Shown here piece after piece: positions 11,447 to 55,705 of a stretch of DNA of 63,231 nucleotides. Position 1 is the first letter of the stretch, and the number at the start of each line of letters is the position of its first letter. The translations under genes were made by a program, and so were the position numbers. The stretch spans positions 1 to 63,231 of IMG/VR virus record IMGVR_UViG_3300047388_000410. One strand, given 5' to 3'. The notes under the pieces were generated by a model. It was not told where the DNA came from, made no database searches, and saw nothing but the letters and a program-made list of their open reading frames with translations. The DNA comes from a virus.

Positions 11447-13421
11447 CTTCATCTCCAGTATCCGGCAAATAATATTTACGTAATTTTCTGTCAACCTGCT
11501 GGAGATTTGCACCTTCGCCTTTCGGCGTCTTAAACGCTTTCAATCTACCAAGTGCAGTTTCTTGTTTGAACATGCAGACTTGGCGACCGTTAGTCAGCCG
11601 TTCAGCTTTAACAAATTGCGCCTCAGTATTCAATCTTCGATGACGAAGCACGAGTTTGCCAACTGTTTGTAGTAGCTCATTACCAGGGAAATTCTCCATC
11701 AGTCTCTTGACTGTGACTACATCCGTACTCACAACTTTCTGCTTCTTCTGATTCTTCCTATACTGCAACGGCAAGCGTAGCTTCTCGTATAAAAACGTCT
11801 TGAGTTTCGCCGGGCTTGGCACTTTGCCGATAATCTCGCCCTTTTTGCTGACGCCCACGATAGCCATTTCCGCCGCGCTGTTTAACGCCGCACTAATCTC
11901 TTTCGCTTCGGCTGTGACTTTTTCGTAATGGGCAGCCCGTCCTTGTTCATCACCACGAATTCCAACGCGGGACAATTCGACCAAACCCGTGTCAATAGGG
12001 GCTTCCATTTCAAGATAATATTCGTAGCGTCCTGCGCTTCTGAGCGCGGATACTCGCACATCCAACAATTCTCTTTGCACACAGTTATCGACACAGTTAT
12101 ATGCCCACAACGACTCTTTATTATGGCTCCATCTGCTAATTTCTTCTGGCGATTTCGCTTCGTGCTTCCAAAAGGGTTGACGGGTATCGAGCGATGCTTG
12201 AAACGCCAAGTCATTCCACTCTGACCATGGCCGCTGTTCGCGGTGCATTTTCATCAGGTCCCATGCGAGATGATCCAATGGCATCTGCTCAGTCGCGCAC
12301 CACCAGGCGTCGAAGGTGAAGTTTTGGCCGCCAAAATCGACGTTTGGATCAGCGTGAAACGCGGCTATCTCATTCTTGACTCTACGCCATGCGATTTCGT
12401 CTTGCCAGTATTCAATTGCCGTCGGGATACAGAGCGCGAGTTTCGCGTCCCATGAGTAGCCGATGCAGCCGAGATAGGCTTCTTCGGAGACTTTGACGCG
12501 GCGGGGTTTTGACAACTGCGGAAGGTATCCAGTGCAAGCACATCTAGCTTTACCGCGTAAGCCTTTGCACGACGACGGCATAATTTCATTATCTTTTCGT
12601 AAGACTTCCAAGTCATGCCATCGGATATTGTGATTGCACGTCCTACATTTTCCATTTGCGGCTGTGCTTTCTTTTTGCCTCGTCTCATATTCCACCTTAT
12701 ACGGCGTCTCAACATCCAAGCTGCACGCTAGCCGTTCAGTAAATATTTCGCCGTCTTTCCGCTTCTCGGCTTCGGCTCTTGCCCATCGCATCCATTCGAT
12801 TGCTTCAGCCGCGCTTGGCGCGATGATCTTTGTGCGCTCGGGCAAGCGCAACTCTCGAAACTGTCCATCCGCCGCTATGCGCTGCCAATCCATCTGCAAC
12901 GCCCATTCGAGGCTTATGTCGCCATAAAATGTTGAATTAGGGTGAACGCTCGATATCACCTTGATTTGCCGCCCGCGCCGATCCTGATAGCTGAGAATGC
13001 TGCCTCGCCATTCCTTCGTACCAGGGCGATCATACTTGCCATCCTTATTATGAAAACTGACGCGACCATTACCCGTAAGCGCATAAAGCGCATACGAGTA
13101 GTTGGTCATTCCGTTTCCAAGCGGGACTATGACATATGGGTCTTCAAGCTGCGCTAGCCGCTCATGCAACCGATCCATCGCAGCGCGCATTTCGGCTTCA
13201 GGAATTGAATTGATATTCTGCGGCTGACCCAAATCCCAACACGAAGTTATGTAGAAGTCGCTGCGGTTTAGTCCCGCCGCTTTCCACCACGGTTGCAACT
13301 TATCGCTGTACGCTGGCCCGACCATTGGGCGCCCGTAGGTTTGCTCCCAATGTCCCCAAGCGTCGATAACCAGCACGAAGCGTGCTGATCTTGAGCCTTC
13401 GTCTTTATTTAACGACAACAT
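11436..13421 (-). CDS. DNA polymerase family A, N-terminal fragment: UDG-like domain, 3'-5' exonuclease, thumb
   Basis: The protein is 661 residues. Residues 15-170 resemble a uracil-DNA-glycosylase-like domain (GRPMVGPAYSDKL, FYITSCWDLG, YVIVPLGNG, SSVHPNS), but the GEAPG catalytic motif is IDAWG, so catalysis is doubtful. The exonuclease follows, with SLDVET (236-238), GGQNFTFDAW (Asp 371) and YNCVDN (Asp 445). A Cys cluster (259, 262, 285, 294, 296) is inserted in it. The end has ALGRLKAF, NLQQVDRKLRKYYLPDTG, which in normal PolA lies just before motif A. The product stops there, and motif A onward is the separate gene 9124..9984. The start at 13421 overlaps a membrane micro-gene; 13466 is possible but unlikely. 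Confidence 0.85.
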   Translation of the reverse strand: MLSLNKDEGSRSARFVLVIDAWGHWEQTYGRPMVGPAYSDKLQPWWKAAGLNRSDFYITSCWDLGQPQNINSIPEAEMRAAMDRLHERLAQLEDPYVIVPLGNGMTNYSYALYALTGNGRVSFHNKDGKYDRPGTKEWRGSILSYQDRRGRQIKVISSVHPNSTFYGDISLEWALQMDWQRIAADGQFRELRLPERTKIIAPSAAEAIEWMRWARAEAEKRKDGEIFTERLACSLDVETPYKVEYETRQKESTAANGKCRTCNHNIRWHDLEVLRKDNEIMPSSCKGLRGKARCACTGYLPQLSKPRRVKVSEEAYLGCIGYSWDAKLALCIPTAIEYWQDEIAWRRVKNEIAAFHADPNVDFGGQNFTFDAWWCATEQMPLDHLAWDLMKMHREQRPWSEWNDLAFQASLDTRQPFWKHEAKSPEEISRWSHNKESLWAYNCVDNCVQRELLDVRVSALRSAGRYEYYLEMEAPIDTGLVELSRVGIRGDEQGRAAHYEKVTAEAKEISAALNSAAEMAIVGVSKKGEIIGKVPSPAKLKTFLYEKLRLPLQYRKNQKKQKVVSTDVVTVKRLMENFPGNELLQTVGKLVLRHRRLNTEAQFVKAERLTNGRQVCMFKQETALGRLKAFKTPKGEGANLQQVDRKLRKYYLPDTGDEDAV

Positions 13422-13528
13422 GCGCGAAATAATGATGCAATAGTAATAATAAATGCAAATAAGCAAATTCCATCAAGTTCATCGCCAATACGATGAAGCT
13501 CTTTTACGACGTCACAAGGATTAATCAT
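13409..13528 (-). CDS. Membrane micro-protein (39 aa)
   Basis: The frame MINPCDVVKELHRIGDELDG has one predicted membrane segment (ICLFAFIITIASLF) and ends in CCR. Its ATG overlaps the stop of the HAD gene (ATGA), and its end overlaps the polymerase start by 13 bases. This coupling supports it; the function is unknown. Confidence 0.5.
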   Translation of the reverse strand: MINPCDVVKELHRIGDELDGICLFAFIITIASLFRACCR

Positions 13529-19783: not shown

Positions 19784-20251
19784 CTAGAACGCGCCTACCG
19801 CTGATCCACTAAACGGCACGAGTACGCGGCCATGATAATTCGGCTTCGGGCACTTCACCATCACCACACCGTGCTTCTTCACGAGCCGGCAAGGAATGTA
19901 ATCAGGTTGCGCCGGGCACGGATTCACAACCGTCACGGTCGGCTGATTGCCCTCGCATACGCACGTCACGGGCGGGCACACGCCGCCACCGGGCAGCGTG
20001 GTCGTAGTCGTCGTCCCATTATCACACATACACACAGCACCATTTGCACATGTACCTGTTGTGCTCCCCTGCGGACAACTACACGGACCATTATCCGCCG
20101 CACATCCCTTACCCTGCGGCGGCGGATCAATCGCTGGACAGCACGCCACACCGTCATAATGGCGATCTGCCGTGCACTGTGGCTGGTCAGCGCGGCAAAT
20201 CGCCACGCTGCCGATTACGAAACACATCCCAACAATAAGCTTAATATTCAT
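19784..20251 (-). CDS. Secreted Cys-rich protein with a Thr/Leu/Pro linker
   Basis: The 155-residue protein has a Sec signal peptide (MNIKLIVGMCFVIGSVAICRA), then a domain with about 18 Cys (CCPAIDPPPQGKGC, CSCPQG, CMCDNG), a TTTTTTLPGGG linker and a second Cys/Pro part. The Thr-run-LeuPro linker is the same kind as in 43268..44341 and 44355..44888 on the other arm. It should be exported and disulphide-rich. The start at 20251 overlaps the upstream stop. The function is unknown. Confidence 0.7.
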   Translation of the reverse strand: MNIKLIVGMCFVIGSVAICRADQPQCTADRHYDGVACCPAIDPPPQGKGCAADNGPCSCPQGSTTGTCANGAVCMCDNGTTTTTTLPGGGVCPPVTCVCEGNQPTVTVVNPCPAQPDYIPCRLVKKHGVVMVKCPKPNYHGRVLVPFSGSAVGAF

Positions 20252-20771
20252 TTTCCCATCTTTCCTCTTCAAGTTTGTCTTGATACACTTCTTTCTCTAC
20301 TCCCTCTAGCAATTCTTCCCGTCTCTTTGCGTATCCCTTCAGCTTGGCGATAACCTCCTTTTTTGTACAATCAAAATCCAGAAATACATCATATGCTTCG
20401 TTATAACTCAGCCCAAAAAACGCGGCCCCGGCGTTTTGGCCTTCAGCGTCATTAAAGTAAATATTCGCTTGATATGCCTGCGGCATTCCTTCGCCGTAAT
20501 AAAACCCATTATCATCATAATTCGTCGTATCCCATACCATCTTCAGCCCTGCGCGCCTAAACCCCTTATCCATCGCTGCATGCCCTAGTGCACATGCCGC
20601 TGTACCACAAAAATTTGCCTCCTTTTCGGGGTTATGATCTAGCGCGTGTCTGCCCCATGTAGTCATATCAAACTTCTTACCCTTCACCGGCCTAAACTTC
20701 GTCAAAATATCCGCCAGCTTCAAAAGCCGTCGCGTGTGAAGCCGCTGGGTTCGTTTATCGACTGTTGCCAT
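20241..20771 (-). CDS. Conserved phage hypothetical protein (176 aa)
   Basis: FDMTTWGRHA and FCGTAACALGHAA form a motif seen in a family of phage proteins of unknown function. The C-terminal third is a charged helix (KAKRREELLEGVEKEV-like). No catalytic motif is clear. Confidence 0.6.
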   Translation of the reverse strand: MATVDKRTQRLHTRRLLKLADILTKFRPVKGKKFDMTTWGRHALDHNPEKEANFCGTAACALGHAAMDKGFRRAGLKMVWDTTNYDDNGFYYGEGMPQAYQANIYFNDAEGQNAGAAFFGLSYNEAYDVFLDFDCTKKEVIAKLKGYAKRREELLEGVEKEVYQDKLEEERWENEY

Positions 20772-22373: not shown

Positions 22374-22749
22374 ATACAATCCGCTCCTCTATCACCACGC
22401 GCTCTCCGGTACTATACACCACGCTCTTAAACCCCGCAAGCTGCAACATGCTATAGCATACGCTGCATGGGCGGCTCATAGCGAGTAGCCCTGTTTTGGT
22501 TAGGCGCACCACTATCATCGTCGCCCCTCGCGTCTCGTCACTTGTCATATGCAACAGCGCGTCTAACTCCGCGTGTATGCGTTGCCAGGCTGTTTGCGCT
22601 TTTGGGTGCGTTCGCATTTGATTGTAGCCTTTACTAAGTAGCTTATTCCCCTTTACAATCAAAGCTCCGACTCGCATATGATGCGTTGAACGGCTAGCCG
22701 TTCGTATCGCCAGATTTAGAAAGCGTATTCTTCTGGCTCCAAGCGTCAA
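22363..22749 (-). CDS. Deoxycytidylate/cytidine deaminase-like protein
   Basis: The zinc and catalytic motifs are clear: RIHAELDAL (His, Glu) and SRPCSVCYSML (two Cys), with VGALIVKGNKLLSKGYNQ before them. Such enzymes convert dCMP to dUMP or deaminate free cytidines. The start is uncertain: the first 20 residues overlap the end of the HNH gene, and the best in-frame codon is a TTG at 22749 without a clear ribosome binding site. The frame is open to 22944. HNH insertion may have replaced the original start region. Confidence 0.8.
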   Translation of the reverse strand: MTLGARRIRFLNLAIRTASRSTHHMRVGALIVKGNKLLSKGYNQMRTHPKAQTAWQRIHAELDALLHMTSDETRGATMIVVRLTKTGLLAMSRPCSVCYSMLQLAGFKSVVYSTGERVVIEERIVYGN

Positions 22750-23245
22750 GATACTCGGCTGCACAGCGCAATACGGCTGTACTATCTCTGAACATGCCAA
22801 GTCCAACATTGCATTGTCCACAAAGCAATCCTCGATGTTTGTTAGTGAAGTGGTCATGGTCAATAGACCAATCTTTTTTATTCCCCGGATTTGTAGTACC
22901 ACATACCGCACATTTGTATCCTTGTGCATGTATAATAGAATCAAACTCTGTTACTGTTATACCGCGCTTTTTGCATCTGCGCCTTTTATCGTACAAAAAA
23001 AGTACCTGCGGATTTTCACGTCTCATCTTTTCACGCCACAGTCGACCTTTGAGAGCAAACTTTTCTTTGAATTTCTCATAGTGCCGCTTCATTACTACTT
23101 TACGTTTTACAGGGTTTGGCGGAGTAGAATTTTGACATGTTTTGCAGCGTGATTGTGGACCGTTTGCCCTGTCTCGTCGTTTATGGAAATCGGTATGCGG
23201 CTTAACTATGCCACATTTAGGGCATTTTTTTGTCAGGAGTGTCAC
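22694..23245 (-). CDS. HNH endonuclease (endonuclease VII-like)
   Basis: The 183-residue protein has an N-terminal zinc ribbon CPKCGIVKPHTDFHKRRDR...CKTC, a basic helical linker, and the C-terminal nuclease CAVCGTTNPGNKKDWSIDHDH, HRGLLCGQCNVGLG. It is a common mobile phage enzyme. The GTG start overlaps the stop of 23242..23475. It is a relative of 10985..11446. Confidence 0.87.
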   Translation of the reverse strand: MTLLTKKCPKCGIVKPHTDFHKRRDRANGPQSRCKTCQNSTPPNPVKRKVVMKRHYEKFKEKFALKGRLWREKMRRENPQVLFLYDKRRRCKKRGITVTEFDSIIHAQGYKCAVCGTTNPGNKKDWSIDHDHFTNKHRGLLCGQCNVGLGMFRDSTAVLRCAAEYLDAWSQKNTLSKSGDTNG

Positions 23246-26623: not shown

Positions 26624-27109
26624 ATGGCTAGACAAAAAGTTTTATGCCCCCACGGCGTTGTAGGCAAAGACAGTTGTCGCGACTGTAAAAAGAACTATGA
26701 TCGCTTATGGAAGCAGCGGAATCCTGATTATTTTAGAGCATATTATAAAAGGCAGCGGGCCGAAAAAGGCTATAAACCACGACCGGCTCGAATGTCTAAG
26801 GAAGAATACGCTATTAAGCGAAAAGTTAAGATGAAACGATATGCAGCGTTATGTTATGCGTTTATTTCGTGGTTAAAAACTGGATTAGTTTGTGTTGATT
26901 GTGCTCAACGATATCCTGAAGTTATGATGGAATTTGACCATCTGCCAAATTATGAAAAGAAAGCAACTATATCGGCTCTAGCTGGCCGTGGCTGGACTAA
27001 GCAATTACTTGAAGAATTACCGAAGACAGAATTAGTTTGCAAGGCTTGTCATCATAATCGTACTCAACAGCGGCGGAAAGAAGCCGGAATGCAAGTATTG
27101 GGCTATTAG
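26624..27109 (+). CDS. HNH endonuclease
   Basis: The 161-residue protein has an N-terminal zinc knuckle (CPHGVVGKDSCRDCKKNYDRLWK), a basic middle, then the nuclease CVDCAQRYPEVMMEFDHLPNYEKK, LPKTELVCKACHHNRT. It is a sister of 40827..41345 by layout. No ribosome binding site precedes the ATG. It stands at the left edge of the late arm. Confidence 0.85.
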   Translation: MARQKVLCPHGVVGKDSCRDCKKNYDRLWKQRNPDYFRAYYKRQRAEKGYKPRPARMSKEEYAIKRKVKMKRYAALCYAFISWLKTGLVCVDCAQRYPEVMMEFDHLPNYEKKATISALAGRGWTKQLLEELPKTELVCKACHHNRTQQRRKEAGMQVLGY

Positions 27110-27717: not shown

Positions 27718-27975
27718 ATGGCTAAGATTGCATATCTTGATGGGCGGGAAGAGATTATTGGACGGCTTCAGGCGCTTTTGAAAGTGGCCGAAGAAGGCGA
27801 TATCAGTGCCATCGCTATCGTGACGAATCATACTGATGGTGGAGTGGGCAAATCGTTCGGTTTCGCTAATAGCGGCGATATGTGGAAACTGGCCGGGTCG
27901 CTGATGGCAACGGCAAACGATGTTTTAAACGAGGGCACGGATACGCGGTATCAAGAAGAAGACGATGGAAGGTAA
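27718..27975 (+). CDS. Hypothetical protein (85 aa)
   Basis: MAKIAYLDGREEIIGRLQAL, then AIAIVTNHTDGG and GDMWKLAGSLMATAND. It is alpha/beta in character. The pattern is reminiscent of conserved phage proteins next to lysis genes, but it is not assigned. Confidence 0.6.
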   Translation: MAKIAYLDGREEIIGRLQALLKVAEEGDISAIAIVTNHTDGGVGKSFGFANSGDMWKLAGSLMATANDVLNEGTDTRYQEEDDGR

Positions 27976-27983
27976 CAAGTAAT

Positions 27984-28634
27984 ATGGCACTTGCAGCAGA
28001 TAAGTTAAAAGACCTAATCAGCATCATAACCCGGCTATTGCCGCAATCATCTACCGTACCACCGAGCCTCGCGGCCGACGAAGTGGGCGTGGAGTTGGAT
28101 ACGGGAAAGTTGAAAGTGGGCGATGGGTCTACACCGTGGGATAGTTTGCCGTATTTGAGTGGCGGAGGTAGTGGGGCAACGGGGCCGACTGGACCACAGG
28201 GGGCGACTGGCCCTTCTGGCGGCGGAGGTGGCAACGTACAGGTAGTAGAAAAAGTGCTCACGGCGGCTGATTTAGCCGCAATGCCAACGCCGGTTGTGCT
28301 CGTTACGCCGGCTTCGGGGAAATATATCGCACCGATTTTCGTTGTTTCGTCGTTTAATCATGTTATGGATTTCCAAGACGGCGATGATGTGTCGATTCAG
28401 ACACAGAACGGCGCTACGCGGCATTCGGTTATCGCGCAGGGTAACGTATTGGCATCTGAAAGTAATGTTATTTTCGGTGGCACCGTAACGCCAACAACAC
28501 AAACCTCATATACTGCATCTGGCGGGCATTATCCGATTGACGATCCGGTGGTGGCAGTAGCGGCGAATCCGTTTAGCCAAGGAACCGGGAGCACGTTAAC
28601 TATTACAATGGCATATTATGAGGCAAGTCTTTAG
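27984..28634 (+). CDS. Virion-surface or tail fibre-like protein with a collagen-like segment
   Basis: The 216-residue protein has an N-terminal helix, then VELDTGKLKVGDGSTPWDSLPY, a particle-attachment head common in phage fibres. [17 protein letters not shown] (Gly-x-y repeats) forms a short collagen-like stalk, and a beta-rich knob follows. It is probably a trimer. The start at 27984 is chosen after the AAGG of the upstream end; the frame is open to 27882. Confidence 0.7.
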   Translation: MALAADKLKDLISIITRLLPQSSTVPPSLAADEVGVELDTGKLKVGDGSTPWDSLPYLSGGGSGATGPTGPQGATGPSGGGGGNVQVVEKVLTAADLAAMPTPVVLVTPASGKYIAPIFVVSSFNHVMDFQDGDDVSIQTQNGATRHSVIAQGNVLASESNVIFGGTVTPTTQTSYTASGGHYPIDDPVVAVAANPFSQGTGSTLTITMAYYEASL

Positions 28635-31331: not shown

Positions 31332-32984
31332 GTGCGACAGTTTGGATTGCTAGATGCCGCGAAGGCGGCCCAAATCTTAGGCTCACGATGGGAACATGAC
31401 CCGTTGCGCATTTGGGCACCTTCTGTGCGTCAGAAGATGTTTTTGGAATGCACAAAGTCTGAAGCCGCGTTATTGGGCAGCAACCGATGCGGAAAGTCTG
31501 ATGCGCTCGCAGCGATTGTATCATCGTTAGCTCGTTTTGGCAACCCAAATCCGCTCACATCATACGCGGCTGGCGGCCGCCTCGAAATCATCGACCGCGC
31601 TATGAGTATTTGGGTCGTGACGCTATCCGAGCGGCTAGGCAAAGAGGGCATTCAGCCGAAAATCGTTTCGACGGCGTATACCGCGGCCGAAACGCACCCC
31701 GCGTTCATTCCGCAAACCGAAATAGATAGCTGGAACATCAACGAGCAAACGTGGAGACTCAAAAATGGCAGCATCATCGGATTCAAAACTGCCGATGCAG
31801 GACGCGAAGTCTTCCAGTCAGCCGCGCGAGATATGGTGGCGTTTGATGAGATTTGTGAGTGGGAGGTTTATAAAGAAGCTACATTTCGCGTGCCGGGCGG
31901 GGGGAGACGGTTGCTTATTCGGCTCGCGGCGACCTTATTGCCCCCATTAGGTGTTGCAGGCGGTGTAAGTTGGTATTATCCGGAGAAAATCAAGCCGTTT
32001 TGGGCGCAAGGGAATAAGGAAAACAATATCGGCAATCCGCACCCTAATCTCGATATCTTCACCATGGGCATGCGGGATAACCCGCATATCAACCGCGAAG
32101 AGATTTTGCGCCTTGAGCAAATGTTTCCGCCGGGGAGTCTAGAGCGGCGCATTCGCGTTGATGGCGAATTGCTGCCGAGTATCGGCGGCACGATGGCCTA
32201 CCCTGCGTTCAACCGCCAAATCCATGTTGATAACCGCATCGTACCCGAAAACCTCGATCCTCGCGCGCCACTATGTCTCTGTATCGACTTCAACGTCAGC
32301 CCGTGTGTGTGGGTCATTGGGCAGCGGCTCAATGTGCAGGGGTTTGATACGTGGTTTTTCTTTGATGAAATCGTAACCGATCAATGCAATATTGGTATGA
32401 TGACGGATGAATTTCGGCGGCGGTATCCGACTCATGGGGCGATGCTGAAGATATATGGCGACCAAACCGGCGCAAACCGTAGCCCACAAAGCGGCGTCAG
32501 CAATTATTACATCATCCAAGAAGGACTCAAAGGCTACCCGGTGCCGATTGAAATGTGCCTGCCCGAGCGCAACCCGCCTGTCGTGGACCGCATCAACGCG
32601 ACGAATCGGCAGCTATCGGGGTCAGAGGGGCGCATTGGGTTAATTGTCGGCCCACATTGCGAAGAAACGATTGCGGACTTTGAAGAAGTGCTCCGCGATC
32701 CAAAAGGCGGGATCAAGAAAACGCATAATATGGACAGCCCGTATTATAAGCGGACTCACGCATCAGATGCTATAGGGTATGCAATAAGCTACACCGACCC
32801 GGTGCCGAGGTTCATTGCCGTGGGTCATGGTTTGCGCCGAGTACCTTCGCCCGGCTATCTCGGCAAAGGCGGCAATATGAGCAGTCGTGCTGGTATGCCG
32901 CCAGTGAGTTATGATGCTGATGGGCGACTGCGAAGAATGGCCGGTGGTGGGATAAGACCGCCAAAACGTTATAATAATTATTAG
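31332..32984 (+). CDS. terL: Terminase large subunit
   Basis: The 550-residue DNA-packaging motor has Walker A GSNRCGKSD (residues 49-57), Walker B MVAFDE (Asp172, Glu173) and a nuclease domain with CIDFNVSP (Asp319), YGDQTGANRS (Asp377) and SDAIGYAISY near the C-terminus. It pumps DNA into the prohead and cuts it. It starts with GTG. The stop overlaps the first copy of the late motif before the portal gene. Confidence 0.93.
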   Translation: MRQFGLLDAAKAAQILGSRWEHDPLRIWAPSVRQKMFLECTKSEAALLGSNRCGKSDALAAIVSSLARFGNPNPLTSYAAGGRLEIIDRAMSIWVVTLSERLGKEGIQPKIVSTAYTAAETHPAFIPQTEIDSWNINEQTWRLKNGSIIGFKTADAGREVFQSAARDMVAFDEICEWEVYKEATFRVPGGGRRLLIRLAATLLPPLGVAGGVSWYYPEKIKPFWAQGNKENNIGNPHPNLDIFTMGMRDNPHINREEILRLEQMFPPGSLERRIRVDGELLPSIGGTMAYPAFNRQIHVDNRIVPENLDPRAPLCLCIDFNVSPCVWVIGQRLNVQGFDTWFFFDEIVTDQCNIGMMTDEFRRRYPTHGAMLKIYGDQTGANRSPQSGVSNYYIIQEGLKGYPVPIEMCLPERNPPVVDRINATNRQLSGSEGRIGLIVGPHCEETIADFEEVLRDPKGGIKKTHNMDSPYYKRTHASDAIGYAISYTDPVPRFIAVGHGLRRVPSPGYLGKGGNMSSRAGMPPVSYDADGRLRRMAGGGIRPPKRYNNY

Positions 32985-33003: not shown

Positions 33004-35073
33004 ATGGCGCGACAGGCAAATATTATTACGCAATCCAAGAAGGACTTAGCGGACAAATGCACTCGCATATCGGGGCATTGGTGGAATCGTTCATGGCAAG
33101 CGCGTTGGAATCGCCGCGCGCAGAATTTGGCAAACTGGAATGCCTATCATAGTAGACAGGATTGGAGCCACAAGTTACCATGGCAGACACAGCAAACAGT
33201 TGCGGATTTTGGCATATCAATTGAGCAATCTACCGGAACGTTGGAGCGCGGACTCACTGATACCGAGGATTGGCTTACGGTTGATCCTGTTGGGATTGGC
33301 GATCCGGCGATTGATCCGGATACGATTGCGGCGTTATTAAAGTATTATTTGTATCGCCTCTGGGTACCGGGCGATGCGCCGGAAAACGCCTACAACATCG
33401 CAAATCTTATTAGTGATGGCGTAAAGCGCGGACTATTGGAGTCAATTATCACGGCAAAGGTGTATGCGAGGTTTTGTACCAAATATCAATATCGCCTTGT
33501 ACAATCGCAGCCGAAAAAAGGTAAACTTGGATATCGAGAAGATTTATCGGCATACGATCTAGTGCCAACGGGCTTACAGCAGAGTGTGACGATAGATAAG
33601 CTACAAGATTTTCGCCTCTGCACGGAAATCATCCCATGGGAAGATTGGTTTCCGGACCCGAGCCTTTTGAATAAATATATAATCCACGAAGCCACAGTGC
33701 ATGTGGCGGATTTGGGCGCCAACCCGGATTATGATCCAGAAGTTGTTAACGCGATACGCGGCACGGCAAATGCGACATACGCGGATATGTACAAACGCGT
33801 GACGCAGGATATCGTTTTTATTCAGCATGATCCTGATGAAGTACGAGTGCGGGAGTTTTGGGGCGATCTCATTGACCCTGATACCGGCGAAGTATTGGCG
33901 ACGAATGCGTTTTGGACAACGTGTAATGATAGACTGCTTCGGCCGCCGACGCCGAATCCGTTTTGGCACGGCAAACGGCCATTCGTGAGTGCGCCGCTGC
34001 TTCGCACGCCGAACAGCACGATTCATAAGGCGCTGGCTGATGACGCGGTATTGACGTGGCAATTCTTAAACGAAGTCATGTCGCTAATGTTCGATGGTGC
34101 GTTGACCGCGGTGTGGGGCAAAGGGCAGATGCGAACGGATTTCGTAGAAAATCCCGAAGACTTTGCCGAGGGCATTCCACAGGCGAGTACGTTTTTGCTG
34201 CGGCCGAATACGCCAGAAGGGTATAAAGCGTGGGAGAAACTCGATAGCGGCGAACTGCCGCAATACGCGCTTGAAATTTTCAACTTGGCTATGCGTCAGT
34301 TTCAAACCGCGATGGCGACGAATGATCTGAAGTTAGGTCAGCAGCCGTCGAAGGAGAGTACCGCTACCGCGATTGTCGAAGCCATGCAAGCAAGCGGATC
34401 GTTATTTGAGTCGATTGCTGCTCGCGTAGAAGACTCGTTTCTTGAGCCCCTGTTCGAGTTACAATGGCTCACGATTTTGCAATACGAATTTGACCACAAA
34501 TTCAGCGATCCAAATCTCGTGCAGATTCTCGGCCCCGAGCGCACGCTTGAGATTATGAAGATGACCAACCAAGAGCGGTTTACGATTTTGGCGCAATCAG
34601 CCAAATTCAAATGCCGCGGGTTACGAGGCGTCACGGCGCGAAATCGTATCATGACAAAGCTGGCGAATCTGGTGCAGCTTGCCAGCCAGCCTGGCTCGCC
34701 GCTCATGTCGATTTTCGGCCCCGGCGGGCAATACAGCACCACGCGCCTCGCAGAACAGCTTATTCGCAACTCTGGCGTTGATCCGACGACACTAGAAAAA
34801 ACTCAAGACGAAAAAAACCAAGAACAAGCGCAGCAGATGGCGCAAGACGCAATCAATCAAGCCCAAGTAATTCAACCCGCACCGATGGGCCAAAATCCCA
34901 ATACGCCGCCCGCCGCAGGTGGCCCAACCGCGCCCGGCCCGGCTGGCGGGTCGCCGCCGGCATTAGTCGATGCCAGTCAGGATCAAATGCCGACTGGCGC
35001 AGGTGCTATGGCGCCTAAAACGCCCACAGGACAAGTACCCGCTGCACCGCAGCCACAAGCAGGCGGGCTGTAA
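33004..35073 (+). CDS. Portal protein
   Basis: The 689-residue protein follows the terminase, as portal genes do. Its size and features (helical NLANWNAYHSRQDWSHKLPWQ, TVADFGISIEQSTGTLERGLTDTEDWL, central KALADDAVLTWQFLNEVMSL, FKCRGLRGVTARN, long C-terminal barrel-type helix and Pro/Gly-rich tail) match podovirus-type head-tail connectors. Twelve copies form the DNA channel. The Pro/Ala/Gly-rich last 100 residues are probably flexible. Confidence 0.82.
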   Translation: MARQANIITQSKKDLADKCTRISGHWWNRSWQARWNRRAQNLANWNAYHSRQDWSHKLPWQTQQTVADFGISIEQSTGTLERGLTDTEDWLTVDPVGIGDPAIDPDTIAALLKYYLYRLWVPGDAPENAYNIANLISDGVKRGLLESIITAKVYARFCTKYQYRLVQSQPKKGKLGYREDLSAYDLVPTGLQQSVTIDKLQDFRLCTEIIPWEDWFPDPSLLNKYIIHEATVHVADLGANPDYDPEVVNAIRGTANATYADMYKRVTQDIVFIQHDPDEVRVREFWGDLIDPDTGEVLATNAFWTTCNDRLLRPPTPNPFWHGKRPFVSAPLLRTPNSTIHKALADDAVLTWQFLNEVMSLMFDGALTAVWGKGQMRTDFVENPEDFAEGIPQASTFLLRPNTPEGYKAWEKLDSGELPQYALEIFNLAMRQFQTAMATNDLKLGQQPSKESTATAIVEAMQASGSLFESIAARVEDSFLEPLFELQWLTILQYEFDHKFSDPNLVQILGPERTLEIMKMTNQERFTILAQSAKFKCRGLRGVTARNRIMTKLANLVQLASQPGSPLMSIFGPGGQYSTTRLAEQLIRNSGVDPTTLEKTQDEKNQEQAQQMAQDAINQAQVIQPAPMGQNPNTPPAAGGPTAPGPAGGSPPALVDASQDQMPTGAGAMAPKTPTGQVPAAPQPQAGGL

Positions 35074-37399: not shown

Positions 37400-37939
37400 A
37401 TGGATTTAGCTGAAGCTGCATCCCAAGCCCGACAGCGGCAGCAAGAAGACGCTGCTCGTATGAAAAGTGCTGCAAAAAGTCCTCTCGCTTCAACTGGCGG
37501 TAAGGGCTTTCAGCGCGGAACGGGTGTGAGCGAAAAAGCAAATGAATACGTGCCATCAGCACCGAAAACTGCCGCCGATATGGGCGGCGCGCAAGACACA
37601 GGCGACGCGCCCGTTGCGTATGGGCAGGATAGTTTGAATTATCTTGGGCATATGGCGGGGGATAACGTTACGACCGAAGGACATAACAACGTACCGCTGA
37701 CAGGGCAACAGGGATTTGGAATGATCGGTAGTTTGAGCCCGTTAAACGATACGCGAGACTACTTAGGCCATATGGCCGGAAACGACGTTACCGCAATCGG
37801 CCACAACCCCGGTGTCAAGGGCACGCTAGAAGAATACAAGGCTGGTACGCTACATAGTGGAAGCAAAACCGGCCCGATTGTCAAGAACCGCAAACAGGCT
37901 ATCGCAATTGGTTTGAGTCAGGAACGAAGAGGAAAATAG
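37400..37939 (+). CDS. Hypothetical virion-region protein with two YLGHMAG...GHN motifs
   Basis: The 179-residue protein has a Gln/Ala/Arg-rich N-terminus. Residues 81-96 (YLGHMAGDNVTTEGHN) and 121-136 (YLGHMAGNDVTAIGHN) are an internal repeat, and it ends with a basic tail. The same motif occurs singly in 35111..36097 and partly in 36098..36436 and 36441..37031. GAAGGAC precedes the ATG. The function is unknown. Confidence 0.6.
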   Translation: MDLAEAASQARQRQQEDAARMKSAAKSPLASTGGKGFQRGTGVSEKANEYVPSAPKTAADMGGAQDTGDAPVAYGQDSLNYLGHMAGDNVTTEGHNNVPLTGQQGFGMIGSLSPLNDTRDYLGHMAGNDVTAIGHNPGVKGTLEEYKAGTLHSGSKTGPIVKNRKQAIAIGLSQERRGK

Positions 37940-38265
37940 TGGCCGATTTGACCGCAGAAGATGTTTCGTATTCAATTATACGAGAACGCATTACTGAAAC
38001 GCAAGGTCGGTACGAAAATATTGTTGATATTACATTTGGTGACGGTGTTAAAACTGTCCCTGCGGACGGTTTACCACTTACTCCGTCTTTGTTAGGATTA
38101 CCAAACGGCGTAATTGAAGTTATAATTATTTTTGGCACAGATTCACAATCTACATTTATAACTTTAATGCCTGCTATTTTTAATATAAATAAAAATACAC
38201 TATTTTTACAAGGTAATCAAATGCCTGTTCTAAGTACATTTCGTTTATTTATTATTGGATATTAA
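37939..38265 (+). CDS. Virion structural protein, paralogue of 42927..43268
   Basis: MADLTAEDVSYSIIRERI, RYENIVDITFGDG, TVPADGLPLTPSLLGLP, then a helix and two strands. The same order (MADxTxxDVxYxI, RYxNxV, FGD, TVPAxGxPL, LGxP) occurs in 42927..43268 after the capsid gene. Such small beta proteins are common virion or decoration components of podoviruses. It starts with GTG overlapping the stop upstream. Confidence 0.65.
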   Translation: MADLTAEDVSYSIIRERITETQGRYENIVDITFGDGVKTVPADGLPLTPSLLGLPNGVIEVIIIFGTDSQSTFITLMPAIFNINKNTLFLQGNQMPVLSTFRLFIIGY

Positions 38266-40826: not shown

Positions 40827-41345
40827 ATGATTAATACCGCTACAGTTACTCAGCTAAACCCTTCAACCAAGCGCTGTTATAAGTGTGAGGAGACGAAGGC
40901 AACTACAGACTTTGGCAAGGATAGCAGCCGAGCCGATGGATTGAATCCGCTTTGTAAGCCGTGTAATAAGACTAAGCATACTAAGTTTAGGGCGGAGAAT
41001 CGTGAGGCTGTTAGAGCGTCATATGCAAAATGGTATGCAAAACCTGAAAACAAAGCAAAGGTACACTATAAGACTGCTAAGCATAATCAAGAACGCGCCG
41101 ATCTTCTAATTGATCGTTTTAAGTCTGCGCCTTGTTTTGATTGCAAACAGTCGTTTCCGACGTGCTGTATGGATTTTGACCACAGGCCCGGAGTTGACAA
41201 GGTATTTGAGCTAAATTACCGAGCCATGAAGTCATTTAGCCTTGATTCGATTATTGAAGAAATTGCGAAATGTGATTTGGTCTGTTCCAACTGCCATCGC
41301 ATTCGCACGAAAACACGTAATCAGGTTGGAAGGAGAAGCTACTAG
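40827..41345 (+). CDS. HNH endonuclease between scaffold and capsid genes
   Basis: The 172-residue protein has the N-terminal zinc ribbon CYKCEETKATTDFGKDSSRADGLNPLCKPC, a basic middle and the nuclease CFDCKQSFPTCCMDFDHRPG, KCDLVCSNCHRIRT. Its C-terminal half matches the layout of 26624..27109. It interrupts the expected scaffold-capsid adjacency, a usual place for mobile enzymes. Confidence 0.87.
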   Translation: MINTATVTQLNPSTKRCYKCEETKATTDFGKDSSRADGLNPLCKPCNKTKHTKFRAENREAVRASYAKWYAKPENKAKVHYKTAKHNQERADLLIDRFKSAPCFDCKQSFPTCCMDFDHRPGVDKVFELNYRAMKSFSLDSIIEEIAKCDLVCSNCHRIRTKTRNQVGRRSY

Positions 41346-41377: not shown

Positions 41378-42337
41378 ATGGCAACTGGAATGTCTTGGAC
41401 TTTCGATGTGCCCGCGGGCGTGGCTAAAAACCATGCTTTATCCGAAGAATACTTCAAGCAGGCCATCGCCCGCACGCGCTTTTTCGAGCACGTCAGCATT
41501 AAGCCCGCCTTCGGCAAAAAGCAGGGCGAGAGCGTAACGATTCCTCTCGTGCCGACTCTGGCTGAACCGGCTTCGGCCCAGCTTAGCGAGAATAGCAATA
41601 TTCCCGAGCTACCGTTTAACTACAAGGTACAGACGGTCGTGGTTAAGGAATTCGGTCAGGCGGTGCCGTATAGCGGACTGCTTGAAGACCTTGACCATTA
41701 TGATCCGGAAGACTGGATTTCGCAGCGCCTTGTGGATCAGCAGAAGCTAGTGCTGGATGCGACGGCCGCAGCCGCATTCAAGACAGCCGCAACGGTTATG
41801 ACGCCGGTTTCGAGCGCAGTGGTCAGCACGGCCACTAACGGCTCACCGGGCGCGGTCGCCGGTAGCAACATCAACTTCTTCCTCATCGAGACGGCGAGAG
41901 ATTATCTCGTCGGCACTCTACTCGCGCCGGGCGTTAAGGACGAAACCGATTATGTTTGCATCGGCAACACGTTCGGCCTTCGTGGTATTAAGCGCGATCC
42001 GCTATTCATTGGCTGGGCGGCTTACAAGGACCCCGAGCGCAAGTGGAACGGCGAAGTGGGGATGATTGAAGATACCACGTTCGTTGAGTCCAACCACGCC
42101 ACCGCGCTAACGTCTACATGGACGCAGGCGGGGAGCGGGGTACTCGGTGAAGCGGTGATGTTTGGTCGTGAGGCGGTTGCATTCGCGGAGGCCGTTACGC
42201 CCGAGCTACGCGCCGGCATTCCTACCGATCTAGGCCGACAGCGCCTCATTGGCTGGTACGGCGTATATGGCTTCCAGCTTCTATGGTCAAGTGCCCTACC
42301 TGGTGAGGGCAAGGTTATTCACTTCGCGTCGCTGTAA
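41378..42337 (+). CDS. Major capsid protein (N4gp56-like family)
   Basis: The 319-residue protein begins with VAKNHALSEEYFKQAIARTRFFEHV, then GESVTIPLVPTLAEPASAQLSENSNIPE, VKEFGQAVPYSGLLEDLDHYDP, and ends with MFGREAVAFAEAVTPELRAG, IGWYGVYGFQLLWSSALPGEGKVIHFASL. This order matches the N4gp56-type coat proteins with the HK97 fold. GGAGACTAC precedes the ATG. It forms the icosahedral shell. Confidence 0.85.
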   Translation: MATGMSWTFDVPAGVAKNHALSEEYFKQAIARTRFFEHVSIKPAFGKKQGESVTIPLVPTLAEPASAQLSENSNIPELPFNYKVQTVVVKEFGQAVPYSGLLEDLDHYDPEDWISQRLVDQQKLVLDATAAAAFKTAATVMTPVSSAVVSTATNGSPGAVAGSNINFFLIETARDYLVGTLLAPGVKDETDYVCIGNTFGLRGIKRDPLFIGWAAYKDPERKWNGEVGMIEDTTFVESNHATALTSTWTQAGSGVLGEAVMFGREAVAFAEAVTPELRAGIPTDLGRQRLIGWYGVYGFQLLWSSALPGEGKVIHFASL

Positions 42338-42926: not shown

Positions 42927-43268
42927 ATGGCTGACATTACGAAAGACGACGTAATATACGTCATCGAACCATATCCCAAGGGTTCACTGCTTACCGATAA
43001 GCCTCCGCGGTATAGTAATCTCGTAAGCGTATCGTTCGGAGACAGCGCGCTAACGGTTCCGGCAACGGGTATTCCGCTCAGCGGCATCGGGCTTGGCTTT
43101 CCAGAAGATCAGGTAGAGTATGTGATTGTAATTGACTCGACTGATGCGGGAAGCGTGTATTTTACCTACGATTCGACTAATAATAGTTTGAAGTCGGCAG
43201 ATACGAATTATGATAGCGGCTCTGCGCCTCCTGCAACGACACTAGTTGTTCTTGCTCGCGGGTATTAA
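42927..43268 (+). CDS. Virion structural protein, paralogue of 37939..38265
   Basis: MADITKDDVIYVIEPYPKGS, RYSNLVSVSFGDS, TVPATGIPLSGIGLGFP, then YFTYDSTNNSLKS and a final strand. The TYDSTNNxLK part is common in small podovirus virion proteins next to the capsid gene. Its partial repeat upstream of the scaffold suggests duplication within the head cluster. GGAGTGG precedes the ATG. Confidence 0.7.
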   Translation: MADITKDDVIYVIEPYPKGSLLTDKPPRYSNLVSVSFGDSALTVPATGIPLSGIGLGFPEDQVEYVIVIDSTDAGSVYFTYDSTNNSLKSADTNYDSGSAPPATTLVVLARGY

Positions 43269-44341
43269 TGAAGAAAATTCTTCTAACGTTTGCAATTTCG
43301 CTGCTTTTGTTTGGCAAAGCATTTGCGCAAACAACCACGACCACTACGCTTCCGACGTGCGCGAATGGCGGTATCAAGTGTGGAAAACAATGCCCAACTG
43401 GCGGTGCGAGTTGCAACCCTAGTGGCGGGCAGCTTTATACCGGCATGTGCGTTGGCAATTCGCTGCAGGGCGAGTGCCAATATGTCGCATGCAGCGGTGG
43501 CGCGAAATGCGTAAGCACTCCATTCGGCAAGCACGGTTGCCTTGGTGATAGTGAATGCAAGCCAGGAGAAGCGTGTATTAGTGATAGCGGCATTGAAGCC
43601 TGCGGTACGGGTTTTAGCGTATGTATGCAGTTATGCCCGGTTTCGACAACCACGACCACTACGACTACTACAACGACAATTAGTAGCACGACGACGACTT
43701 CGGCTCCGTCAACTACGACCACGACTGTACCGATTGGTTCGCTGGGTAATTACGGCGTTGTGGCTTCGTCTACGATTACGAACACCGGCTTTACGGTTGT
43801 TCAGTGCAAAATGGCACTTGACCCTGGATCATCTATCACAGGCTTTCCGCCTGGCACAGATGGCGGTGAAGATATTAGCAATCCGGCATCGCTTCAGGCA
43901 CAGACTGACGCGACGACACTTTATAACTACCTTGCCGGGCTGTCATCTACCGCTACCGTATCTGGTGATATCGGCGGCACGACCAAAGGACCAGGCGTCT
44001 ATACCGCTTCATCTACGCTTTCAGTAACGACGGCTGATTTGACACTCGATGGTGGTGGCGATCCAAATGCGCTCTTCGTTTTCCAAATCGGCTCAACGTT
44101 TACAGTTGCAAATGGTAAGCAGATTGTACTGATTAACGGCGCGCTGGCAAAGAACGTGTATTTCCAAGTCGGCAGTAGTGCAACATATGGCACAACTTCT
44201 GTTATTCACGGAACCACGGTCGCACTAGCATCTGATACAGTAAACACCGGCGCCACGGTTATCGGGCGACTTATCGCACGAACCGGCGCAGTAACGCTCG
44301 ATGACAACGCAGTAACATCACCAACAGGCACTTGCCCATAA
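43268..44341 (+). CDS. Secreted Cys/Thr-rich protein with a C-terminal DUF3494 (ice-binding-type) domain
   Basis: The 357-residue protein has a Sec signal peptide (1-20), a short TTTTTTLP run, a Cys-rich domain (31-125, about 16 Cys), a Thr linker (127-153), then residues 157-357 with the DUF3494 beta-solenoid: NYGVVASSTITNTG, GPGVYTASSTLSVT, NALFVFQIGSTFTV, AKNVYFQVGSSATYGTTSV, and NTGATVIGRLIARTGAVTLD. Known DUF3494 proteins bind ice or act as cell-surface adhesins. Finding one in a phage late operon is unusual. It could act outside the host cell or on the virion; that is not decided by the sequence. The ATG overlaps the upstream stop (TAATG). Confidence 0.85.
   Translation: MKKILLTFAISLLLFGKAFAQTTTTTTLPTCANGGIKCGKQCPTGGASCNPSGGQLYTGMCVGNSLQGECQYVACSGGAKCVSTPFGKHGCLGDSECKPGEACISDSGIEACGTGFSVCMQLCPVSTTTTTTTTTTTISSTTTTSAPSTTTTTVPIGSLGNYGVVASSTITNTGFTVVQCKMALDPGSSITGFPPGTDGGEDISNPASLQAQTDATTLYNYLAGLSSTATVSGDIGGTTKGPGVYTASSTLSVTTADLTLDGGGDPNALFVFQIGSTFTVANGKQIVLINGALAKNVYFQVGSSATYGTTSVIHGTTVALASDTVNTGATVIGRLIARTGAVTLDDNAVTSPTGTCP
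43646..43727 (+). repeat. ACN-rich low-complexity repeat encoding the Thr linker
   Basis: Runs of ACG, ACC, ACT and ACA codons encode about 20 Thr in 27 residues between the Cys-rich and DUF3494 domains. Mixed Thr codons suggest selection on protein, not simple slippage. Confidence 0.7.
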
Positions 44342-44354
44342 CGAGGGGATGAAA

Positions 44355-44888
44355 ATGGGACTTAAGAAGATTTTGCTAGCACTTGCGATTACGGTTACAC
44401 TTGCTGGCGTTGCATCTGCACAGACAACCACAACCACGACTTTGCCGACGTGCGCGAATGGTGGTATTAAATGTGGTAAGACATGCGGCGATAGTACTAG
44501 CCCTGGTGATGGGACGTGTGGTCTAAACTTCACCGGCATGTGCGTTGCGAAGTTAAACGACACGACCGGGTGTCAGTATATGCGGTGTAGCGGCAATACG
44601 CCAGCGTGTGTGTCGGGGCCGTTTATTCTTCCTGGCGCCGGATGCAGCAGCGATGTTACCTGTGGGCCGGGCGGAATTTGCGTAAGCAGCAGCGGTATGG
44701 CTGGTTGTGGTGATGGGTTTGCGCAGTGTATGACGGCATGCACGACCAGCACGACCACAACGACAACTTCTACCACGACCACGACAGCCGCGCCGACGAC
44801 TACGACTACAGCGGCTCCAACTACGACAACAACTAGCACGACAACGACTACTACTACTACGACCAGCACTACGACCACGACGGCCTAA
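44355..44888 (+). CDS. Secreted Cys/Thr-rich protein, tandem paralogue without the DUF3494 domain
   Basis: The 177-residue protein has a signal peptide (MGLKKILLALAITVTLAGVASA), then QTTTTTTLPTCANGGIKCGKTC, nearly the same start as the previous gene, the same Cys-rich domain with matching CxxDxTCGPGxxC and CGDGFAQCMTAC parts, and a C-terminal Thr/Ala/Pro tail (130-177) that ends the protein where DUF3494 would begin. GAGGGG selects ATG 44355. It is probably O-glycosylated or an extended surface protein; the function is unknown. Confidence 0.75.
   Translation: MGLKKILLALAITVTLAGVASAQTTTTTTLPTCANGGIKCGKTCGDSTSPGDGTCGLNFTGMCVAKLNDTTGCQYMRCSGNTPACVSGPFILPGAGCSSDVTCGPGGICVSSSGMAGCGDGFAQCMTACTTSTTTTTTSTTTTTAAPTTTTTAAPTTTTTSTTTTTTTTTSTTTTTA
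44742..44885 (+). repeat. ACN-rich low-complexity repeat encoding the Thr tail
   Basis: About 48 codons are nearly all Thr, with Ser and AlaAlaPro breaks (AAPTTTTTAAPTTTTT). It is the longest homopolymer-like region in the genome. Confidence 0.7.
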
Positions 44889-44904: not shown

Positions 44905-45387
44905 ATGGCAACATTAAGAGAAGTTGAGGAACGAGACAGCAAGGGTAACACGATTCGCGTGAATCCGTCTGTCACGTTCAAAGCCGATCAAAACGAGCGC
45001 ATTATCGCCGGTCGGCATGACTTTCGGCTTGTGCCGAACGAGATGTACCATACGCCAGTTACCGCGCAGGTACAAAACGGCAAGATTCTCTTTTTCGAGG
45101 GCACTCCTGATACGACTAATAGCCGCCGCGCAGCGAAGGAAATCAAGCAGTCTGAAGTGCCGCCGTATATTATCGAAATGCTGAAGAAGAACCCGATTCG
45201 AGTACGTGAAGCGCGGCCGACGGTATATGAAGTCAAGATCGCGACCATTGGTGACGTTGAAGTGACGCAGACAGAAGAACTAACGCCCGACGCAAGTGGC
45301 AACGTCAACATTGAGCCCGTTGCGCCGAAGCTAACCCGCGCTCCTAAGCCCCAGCCCTATCACGTCGAGGCCGATACTTCGGCCTAA
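44905..45387 (+). CDS. Hypothetical structural protein (160 aa)
   Basis: The protein has an N-terminal helix, a KILFFEGTPDTTNSRR segment, a helix (EVPPYIIEMLKKNP), then strands and an acidic/Pro tail. It sits in the head completion region. It is not recognised. Confidence 0.6.
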   Translation: MATLREVEERDSKGNTIRVNPSVTFKADQNERIIAGRHDFRLVPNEMYHTPVTAQVQNGKILFFEGTPDTTNSRRAAKEIKQSEVPPYIIEMLKKNPIRVREARPTVYEVKIATIGDVEVTQTEELTPDASGNVNIEPVAPKLTRAPKPQPYHVEADTSA

Positions 45388-46578: not shown

Positions 46579-48360
46579 ATGGGCGTACAGTTAAACATAT
46601 TCGACGGTACATTAGAGCCCGATAAGCATCCGGGGCCGGCAGGGGCCACCGGGGCCACTGGTCCGGTTGGCCCGGGCAGTGGAGCAACCGGCGCGACGGG
46701 TGCAACCGGGTCAAGCGGGACTGCGGGCAGCAATGGTGCAACGGGGGCAACAGGAGCCACGGGGCCATCGGGCGCTGGGTCAACTGGTGCGACTGGTTCT
46801 TCGGGGCCGACGGGCGCTACTGGCCCGACCGGCCCACAAGGTAATACAGGCGCAACAATTACCCCATCATGTGCTACAGCACCAGAATTATTGTGCCTTG
46901 GCGGACGCGTTGGTACAGCAAATAACCCAACAATCAGTAGTGATATTGATGGTATTATTACAGGTTCTGGTACAGCGAGTAAAAATCTTCTTATTCATTC
47001 AAATCCATCGCTTGACGGGTACACGGAGTTCGACGGCCAGCTTCGCATCAAGGCCGGTACGCCGTTTGGTGTTGGAAGTCAGGTTATCGGCGAAAGTGCG
47101 GGCGGCGCGTTACAGATTCTCGGGCTATCGCCGTCAACCGCAACGTCGGTCGTTGGTGGTGGTCTGCGGGCGATTGCGCTCGACCCCGATTCCATCGCGA
47201 CGCCGATTCTCGTTCAAGACTCAACGTATGCATCGTTGATTATCCCTGGACAGATTCATCTTGCGTCTCCCGGTGGCAATGCGTTCATATTTGCCATCAT
47301 CGCTGGCGCGACCATCATGATCACTGACAGCACTAATAAGCTAAAAGTCGGGTTGTTCAGCGACAACAACACCATCGTTGCTGACGGCACTACACAGACG
47401 CTCGACGAGCAGGTGTCATTTGAATCCGAGCCGGTGTTGCAGTCGAATAACGGCGGCGTACTGACGATCAACGATTCAAAAGTCGTATGGGATAACTTCT
47501 CGCTCGCGACCGATGGAACGCCGGGCGGCAGCGTCACCGTTATTGATCATGCAGTAGCCATATCGGCGCCGACCATCGGCGATTTCTGTGTCATCACGAA
47601 TCGCCGTGGGTTGTGGTTCAAAGACTATTTCGACTCGGGCGGCATCGTTGTTCGAGGGACCGCTACCAATCAGATCGCGGTAGACGTAGAGGATTTACCT
47701 CCTCATCCAGTGAACCCTGGCGTGTTGATGCTTTCGCTGCGTTCCGTTGGTGCGGGCGTCCAGATGCGCCACGTCGGCGCCGCGGTATTCGGGGCCAATG
47801 CCGCTCCTACTGGTGCATATATCCTAGAGGTCATCGGCAATGCTCACATTAGCGGTAAACTAACTGTAGACGGTGCCATCGACCCGACTGATATCACCTA
47901 CTCTAGCCAACTCATTTCTACTATCGTTACGGGCACTGCACCAATGGTAGTGGCTTCCACTACCGGAGTAACCAATCTTAACGCCGATATGGTAGATGGA
48001 TTACATGCAACGGCATTTGCTTCTGCTGCGACGTTAATTCCATTATCCGCTCAGTCCAACGATATCGTTGACACGACCGTCACCGGAACGGCTGGCTTCT
48101 ATCGTGTTCACGTCTACTTAGTCGATTCCACTGCTGCCTTGGCCGCTGGTACTGTGTCCTGCAACATCAAGTTCAACGACGGATCAGCCGCTCAGACTAT
48201 AACCGTTGGCCCCATCGCACTGGCAACCCTTGGCTCCATGACACAGGCTACAATCTTCGTAAACCTAGCTTCGGGCAATCTTACCTACGGCACTGTCCAT
48301 ACCGGATCGTTTTTAGGATCGCAATATGGGTTGTTTATCACTTGGGAGAAGGTGGCATAA
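46579..48360 (+). CDS. Collagen-like tail fibre or appendage protein
   Basis: The 593-residue protein has a short head ([18 protein letters not shown]), a collagen-like stalk of Gly-x-y triplets (residues 18-96, [13 protein letters not shown] type) and a long beta-rich body with repeated strand segments ([11 protein letters not shown]..., [15 protein letters not shown]), ending with a small domain. It is likely a homotrimer for host binding. It lacks an enzyme signature. Confidence 0.8.
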
Positions 48361-53568: not shown

Positions 53569-54359
53569 TGGCTAGAATAACATTTCGCGATATGGGCACG
53601 GCGGACTCTAATCTTGTTTTTGCTCCATTTATGTCAACACGATTCACCAGCGCCGTCATTAGTCCAGGCACTAACTGGTCACCGAGAAACTTTACTATCG
53701 ACCAGTTTACCGCTACCGCGCCCGCTGCACCAGGAGTAGGCACAGCGGTTGATTTTCAAACTAACGTAGGTGACAACGTTCCTGTAGGTGATGTTGGTAG
53801 CGCTGTTTCGTTAAACGGTACGAATACGCAAGTACGCGGTACTATGGCCGCACCGGTTGGCATCGTTGGCTCACGAAATCCTACTGCATTTACTATTCGT
53901 GAAATCAAAACCGGCATGCCGACAAGTCAAGTCACGCATAACGGCATATCATATACATGTACAAATCCAAATCAAGACGTGAGTTTATATTCATGGGGTC
54001 AAGCGACAGCGGGTATTTTTACACCAGGGAATCCAGTATTCCTCAAACCCTGTTCTGCGCGGCTCAGTAGCACATTAACTCAAACATTTGAAATCGTATG
54101 GCCCGTTACCGGTACATTTAAATATTTCGTTTTCGTTACTCCCGGTAGCGGCATTACTTGGGATGGTAATATTACTCTTACGCTTCAAATCGACGGCGGT
54201 AGCAGCATTTCATTTACGCCGACGAATGGTGTGGACGTGTTTACCGATTATGTGCAGACCTTAGCTGTTACATCGGGGCAGCTTGTATATTGGCAGGCTA
54301 CGCGCAACTCGGGATCATTTAACCCAGCTATTACGTTTACCTGGGGTTTCGGCACGTAA
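53568..54359 (+). CDS. Beta-rich tail/fibre protein (263 aa)
   Basis: It is Thr/Gly/Asn-rich with repeated strands and a C-terminal part ([37 protein letters not shown]) suggesting a carbohydrate-binding type sandwich. It lies between the tail protein pair and a collagen-like fibre with TAATG links. It is not assigned. Confidence 0.65.
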
Positions 54360-55705
54360 TGTCATTCCGCAAACAACGTTTGCCGGGATTCATTGAAGTA
54401 GCGACTGGCAACACAGGTGCCGGCGGAGTTACCGGCGCAACTGGCCCAGCGGGGGCTACCGGCGCAATAGGCGCAACAGGAAGCACGGGACCTATAGGTA
54501 TAACTGGCGCCACCGGCCCTTTTGGCTTAACAGGAGCTACCGGTTCGCCCGGCGAAGACGGTCTAAACGGCGAAGACGGGGCGCCGGGAATGCCGGGCAC
54601 GACTGGTCCTACTGGCCCTCAAGGGGTAACGGGCTCAGACGGTGCTACGGGCTCGTCAGGACCACAAGGTGCCACCGGACCAACCGGCCCCGCTGGGCCG
54701 GCTTCGACACAGGGCGACACGGGTGCTACTGGAGCCACTGGGGCTACAGGCGCCGGTCCAACAGGCGCAAGCGGCCCAACCGGTCCAACAGGGCCGTCAA
54801 GTGTCGGGGCAACTGGACCGCCGGGCGTAGACGGCATTGATGGCGAAGATGGTGCCCAAGGGCCACAGGGGACTACGGGGCCAACCGGCCCACAAGGCAG
54901 CACGGGCGCAACCGGAGTACAAGGGAGCACAGGTGCAACAGGTGTTCAAGGTGCGACCGGCGCTACGGGACCACAAGGAGCTACGGGAGCCGGGGCAACG
55001 GGAGCGACCGGGGCGACTGGTGCGCAAGGCGCAACAGGAAGCGGCGGAACAAACTCTAACGCTGCCTCAAAATTCCTTGGCTGGCTTCAAATGGCAACGA
55101 CAGCAACGGGAACAGTCATTAACGCAGTTGGACTTATATCTCGTACACAAACTGGCACAAACTCACTTGTAACGGATTCAACTGGGCGTTATTTAAAAAA
55201 CGTAAGCAGCACTGCACTTAATACAACCGCCGGTTTGGATTTTATTTCTGGCGACGCTGAAACCGAAGCGCAGTTTGGACCTGATATTACATTCGTCATG
55301 AAAACTGGTCCTGCAAGCACGGACGTTACTAACGTGCGCATTTGGGTTGGCATATTTAGCGTTGATCCAAGCGGGTCTGCTGATCCAGCCGGCCATCGTC
55401 TTGCATTTCGTTTTGATACAGGCGCGGGTGATACTGTATGGCAAGCAGTATCAAAAGACGGCACAACACAAGGAATAAGCTCAACAGGAACTTCAGTTAC
55501 CGCTGATACGCGATACGTTATGCGTATTGATGGGAGCAATGCAGCATCAGTAGACTATTATATCAACGGATCACTTGTTGCAACACGTACAACAAATTTG
55601 CCCGGCGCTTCAACAGCTTTAGCCGTTGCACAGACAATTACTAACTTAAGTGCAGGTACAGCTCGTGCTATTCTTTGGGCACGTTATCAAATAAACCAGA
55701 ACTAA
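54359..55705 (+). CDS. Collagen-like fibre with a C-terminal lectin-like domain
   Basis: The 448-residue protein has about 210 residues of Gly-x-y triplets ([19 protein letters not shown] type, with [16 protein letters not shown]) in a long stalk. From about 235 a ConA-like sandwich follows ([61 protein letters not shown]). Its design suggests a trimeric receptor-binding fibre. It is the strongest receptor-binding candidate. Confidence 0.82.

Follow-up and report, generated by a model that had tools for sequence, protein, structure and literature searches.

The DUF3494 family (Ice_binding, PF11999) is best known for the binding of ice. Its members are spread over bacteria of all habitats, suggesting that other substrates are bound in warmer places (PMC6892780). 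Viruses are already known to carry DUF3494 genes, which have been reported as auxiliary genes; three PF11999 genes in virus contigs from the Arctic are listed as possibly cryoprotective auxiliary genes (PMC11515562), and one antifreeze protein is listed in Southern Ocean viruses (PMC8407431). Viral genes of this family have so far been read in terms of cryoprotection of the host. A search of the open-access literature, with subscription papers and preprints outside its scope, found no paper that brings DUF3494 together with phage, and in a search of the same literature for ice binding with phage tails or virions the term surfaced only in a reference list. Four tblastn queries against 50,697 named phage records gave no DUF3494 match.

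We have studied a DUF3494 gene in a complete viral genome, comprising the whole of an IMG/VR record of 63,231 bases that is classed there as linear, and which we call the window. A preliminary description of this DNA had placed a DUF3494 domain at 43740-44341, in a protein with a signal peptide and a Thr linker that is encoded between capsid and tail genes. The span is seen to be the C-terminal domain of ORF 43268-44341 (+ strand); the gene lies where it was said to lie, and the linker is present in the sequence at 43643-43726. Two close relatives, the IMG/VR records L005 and L006, are both fragments and have the same gene order, with a major capsid protein (MCP) that is 92% (L005) and 86% (L006) identical to that of the window. 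The features of the region are as follows.

31332-32984: terminase (PHROGs)
33004-35073, + strand: portal protein, early in the head operon (PHROGs)
41378-42337, + strand: MCP (phrog_1357, E = 1.3e-11)
42927-43268, + strand: small gene bounding the slot on the left, also present in L005 and L006
43268-44341, + strand: whole ORF of 357 amino acids, with signal peptide, Cys-rich module, poly-Thr linker and DUF3494 (translation, PF11999)
43268-43327, + strand: predicted Sec signal peptide MKKILLTFAISLLLFGKAFA, cut before QTTTTTT
43328-43642, + strand: QTTTTTTLP and Cys-rich module (alignments; homologues only in L005 and L006)
43643-43726, + strand: Thr-rich linker in which all four Thr codons are used (sequence, codon count)
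43727-44338, + strand: DUF3494 beta-solenoid, running to the C-terminus (profile, phmmer, AlphaFold2, Foldseek)
44349-44888, + strand: tandem paralogue of 179 amino acids, with signal peptide, Cys module and long Thr tail, without DUF3494
44905-45387, + strand: conserved gene bounding the slot on the right, with 54-56% identity in L005 and L006

ORF 43268-44341 is the third gene after the major capsid gene, inside the head operon, and its start codon is overlapped by the stop codon of ORF 42927. Its strand, its position in the operon and the conservation of the slot in both relatives place it in the late head module, the DUF3494 part being found in the window only.

Several other features of the genome may be recorded here. 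The small head-module genes at 37939-38265 and 42927-43268 (both +) are paralogues lying about 5 kb apart, and both match one single gene in L005, and likewise in L006. A small ORF that separates the scaffold-like gene from the MCP (40827-41345, +) appears HNH-like by eye, with no Pfam match; it lacks a counterpart at this place in L005 and L006, and so a homing endonuclease may have been inserted here. ORFs of similar kind are found at 22694-23245 (-) and 26624-27109 (+). The window also encodes collagen-repeat tail fibre proteins (46579-48360 and 54359-55705, both +), an Mtd_N domain (27882-28634), and a 676-amino-acid ORF (11436-13466, -) that matches uracil DNA glycosylase in its N-terminal part only.

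The C-terminal part of the protein encoded by ORF 43268-44341 is a full-length DUF3494 domain. Residues 164-350 match PF11999 over the full model (1-208) with E = 3.6e-49 and a score of 167.7 bits, compared with a curated cut-off of 28.7, and control genomes gave no match to this profile. A phmmer search of the PDB found 6eio (E = 9.7e-50). AlphaFold2 folds the domain into a beta-solenoid with one helix (residues 206-223); pLDDT is about 98 for the most part, with block means of 91-99 nearly throughout and dips to 78 near residue 195 and 83 at the C-terminus. The nearest structure by Foldseek is again 6eio (TM 0.88 by target length, rmsd 0.9 Å), with 30 more chains of its family matching with E below 1e-10. 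The domain assignment in the preliminary description is thus upheld by both profile and predicted structure. PHROGs gave no match to the domain, and therefore seemingly has no family for it. Assigned by sequence register rather than from coordinates, the strands presumed to form the ice side are rich in Ser and Thr; they resemble those of 6eio but differ in places. The 6eio strand SITFDT becomes SDTVNT in the window protein, where Asp replaces Ile, and STLTTT becomes STFTVA, with fewer Thr. Two cysteines lie at the ends of the domain, near residues 180 (VVQCKM) and 356 (in the C-terminal GTCP), and a closing disulphide is possible. The base composition of the domain agrees with that of the rest of the phage. 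Chimeric assembly is unlikely, given the unbroken frame across the linker and the fitting composition.

The N-terminal part of the protein suggests export. The start, MKKILLTFAISLLLFGKAFA followed by Q, is signal-peptide-like as first described, having a best 10-mer hydropathy of 2.7, two K/R residues and an AxA site, where the remaining head and tail genes that were checked reached 1.4 at most. Signal peptides were called by hydropathy and the AxA rule for both window proteins, each of which has a predicted one at its N-terminus, and by eye for the proteins of L005 and L006; all four members of the family begin in this way. The Cys module that follows (approximately amino acids 30-124) contains 13 cysteines, and in an alignment of the four proteins the 13 cysteine columns are invariant. 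AlphaFold confidence is low in the module (30-40), and below 50 for all of residues 1-137. Searches of Pfam and PHROGs with the module were empty, and weak matches in a PDB profile search (E = 0.04-0.35) were set aside. No copy was found in IMG/VR outside L005 and L006, nor, within the limits of a pattern search, in GTDB contigs, in 148 genomes belonging to a single phylum or in 9 others. Mixed Thr codons are used in the Thr stretches, which are therefore not accounted for by simple slippage of the DNA. A further Cys-rich protein of the exported type, the third in the window, has a TTTTTTLP stretch and no Pfam match; it is encoded in a minus-strand block at 19784-20272 (-). We considered the TTTTTTLP linker as a pointer to the host, but the motif is concentrated in a few genomes and identifies no host.

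The slot between ORF 42927 and ORF 44905 is occupied in L005 and L006 by one exported-type Cys-rich protein each, having a Thr tail and lacking DUF3494, and no DUF3494 was found anywhere in these partial records. The Cys module is conserved in them at 41-46% identity, with frame and cysteines kept. In the window the slot holds two such genes in tandem (43268 and 44349). Their Cys modules share 55% identity, and the first gene alone bears DUF3494. The 13-cysteine module and the tandem paralogue at 44349-44888 are additions to the preliminary description. The most direct reading of these sequences is that the phage's own protein was duplicated, and that DUF3494 was fused to one copy; the reverse order, in which both relatives lost the domain, needs more steps. 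We sought further relatives by means of the MCP, the portal and ORF 44905, and these searches returned the same two phages together with sequences that were either fragments falling short of the slot or distant. Within this phage group the fusion is found in one phage only.

How do phages in general use DUF3494? IMG/VR was searched by alignment, giving 68 loci with 75 DUF3494 ORFs. Only 5 of the 75 have a signal-peptide-like start by the rule applied, and four of those are the near-copies L150-L153. The domain is seen to come in two modes in phages, either of exported type or without a signal peptide, and several of the latter are in virion proteins. Examples of both are listed below.

L154, 9356-12196: tail sheath fusion (phrog_279, E = 7.8e-31)
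L156, 8951-12202: tail sheath fusion (phrog_2839, E = 1.7e-27)
L110, 5447-12427: baseplate J fusion (phrog_6, E = 8.5e-23; Baseplate_J, E = 9.3e-12)
L002, 7309-11788: tail region with DUF3494 in an uncultivated phage
L102, 6090-7034: exported-type DUF3494, flanked by a scaffold-like ORF and the MCP (phrog_9953, E = 4.9e-54)
L150, 4169-5590: exported-type, lipoprotein-like DUF3494, flanked by a terminase-like ORF and the portal gene

The 142-kb record L002 carries five copies, and by eye two of the ORFs adjoin a baseplate-J-like gene. The DUF3494 ORF lies a few genes downstream of a portal or connector-like gene in L108, L120 and L133, and directly 3' of the head maturation protease in L098; position suggests a capsid-adjacent role for ORFs of this type, among whose partner genes many have no PHROG match. 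At least two phage groups unrelated to the window have an exported-type DUF3494 in a head gene cluster: L102, whose protein consists of a signal peptide, DUF3494 and a Pro/Ser/Thr tail, and L150-L153, whose portal matches phrog_7376 (E = 7.3e-81). The window protein belongs with the exported type, since it begins with a predicted signal peptide and Pfam and PHROGs recognise no virion domain in it. In a tree of 111 DUF3494 domains most virion copies group in viral clades, whereas the window domain forms a long branch (0.69) beside bacterial sequences, without firm support. A grouping of the window domain with the virion clades is unsupported by this tree.

Given the observed anatomy, fold and slot of the window protein, with its duplication and fusion, we favour on balance a late, phage-encoded, Sec-exported adhesion protein that is made with the capsid, one of whose two tandem copies has gained DUF3494. 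The phage group would have a small exported protein of its own, comprising signal peptide, disulphide-type Cys module and Thr tail, and one tandem copy would have acquired the solenoid as its outermost domain. The host would export the product of ORF 43268-44341 in late infection. The Cys module would fold extracytoplasmically and might tie the protein to the envelope or another extracellular partner; such anchoring is a guess, because searches of Pfam, PHROGs and the PDB found no homologue of the module with established function. The Thr stretch would act as a flexible stalk, and the solenoid would bind an extended flat surface such as ice, an ordered polysaccharide or a mineral. Infected cells, debris or released particles would thereby be held at a surface; alternatively, ice damage to the infected cell might be lessened during a slow infection in the cold. 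Some points count against an exported adhesion protein. Proteins encoded in head operons are usually parts of the virion, and an exported protein cannot enter a capsid that is built in the cytoplasm before lysis. Moreover, a host cell that lyses soon after late expression has little time in which to benefit. The confinement of the fusion to one phage of the group and the low AlphaFold confidence of the Cys module count on the same side.

The alternatives differ in what the domain would bind, and for whom. An exported domain that inhibits recrystallisation could enable the infected cell to survive freeze-thaw until the phage is released. The nearest solved structure, 6eio, is an ice-binding protein of an Antarctic consortium, 46% identical in the Foldseek alignment, the presumed ice-side strands are Ser/Thr-rich in both, and the Arctic virus PF11999 genes have been proposed as cryoprotective auxiliary genes (PMC11515562). 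However, the closest matches to the window domain include soil actinobacteria (Streptomyces, Kitasatospora) not known to be cold-adapted, the strands have been changed relative to 6eio, with Asp for Ile and fewer Thr, and late expression would be a poor moment for protecting the host; we regard such a role as possible but doubtful. DUF3494 is a component of virion proteins in many phages, so that a surface adhesin is no worse a fit than ice binding, and since the family is widespread, including bacteria that are not from the cold, our preference is for a less specific reading, an exported protein that binds surfaces. The window domain is probably a borrowed module for sticking to surfaces. A wider generalisation would be that DUF3494 is a general adhesion module of phages with a ligand other than ice, acquired repeatedly; most phages having it would carry it within virion proteins, while some lineages, including that of the window, would carry it on an exported protein, expressed together with the capsid, that coats particles or debris on release. 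We consider this rather unlikely as a whole.

Less likely still is that the protein accumulates beyond the inner membrane and attaches to capsids on lysis by means of its Cys/Thr module, which by analogy might give the particle a sticky shell such as Hoc and Ig-like decorations provide from inside. The exported-type gene is found in the head operon of three lineages, and DUF3494 is both fused into virion proteins (tail sheath in L154 and L156, baseplate J in L110) and encoded after portal or connector-like genes (L108, L120, L133) or the protease (L098). Yet no capsid-binding module was recognised in the window protein, most virion DUF3494 domains fall in clades of their own with the window domain outside them, and we know of no precedent for a Sec-exported capsid decoration. 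It is very improbable that a secreted host gene has been swept in as a passenger with no phage role. Proteins with the TTTTTTLP Thr linker do recur in some bacteria (among 99 sampled genomes, two have 7 and 9 sites), but the Cys module was not found in the bacterial genomes sampled, it persists in both relatives, in the same slot, at 41-46% identity and with an intact frame and cysteines, and the Thr tract is maintained with mixed codons.

The exported adhesion protein that we favour may be compared with systems already described. EfcIBP (6eio) has the same fold as the window domain, with 46% identity (Foldseek) and Ser/Thr-rich strands in both; EfcIBP is however bacterial, with ice binding demonstrated in the literature, while the window domain is part of a phage fusion to a Cys module and its ice binding is putative. 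The Arctic and Southern Ocean genes are on viral contigs like that of the window, but the accessible parts of those reports (PMC11515562, PMC8407431) give annotation lists without architecture, slot or virion fusion. Phage S-SKS1, mentioned in these reports, gave no PF11999 match in our profile search. L102 and L150-L153 have an exported-type DUF3494 in the head cluster like the window, but lack the Cys module, and differ further in the Pro/Ser/Thr tail of L102 and the lipoprotein-like appearance of L150. As far as we have checked, neither the exported fusion with a Cys module nor the repeated use of DUF3494 in virion proteins has been described. The presence of the domain in sheath and baseplate proteins and in head-linked exported-type proteins points to a wider function in surface attachment, and the phage set provides testable proteins with which to ask what DUF3494 binds outside icy habitats. 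The Ig-like decorations of virions (extra domains of the tail sheath, and Hoc; PMC9230969, PMC10385173) are likewise a promiscuous, surface-binding add-on domain; these have the Ig fold and are built in, whereas the window protein has a DUF3494 solenoid and is of the exported type. DUF3494 may thus be a new type of phage surface domain, to be placed alongside the Ig-like ones.
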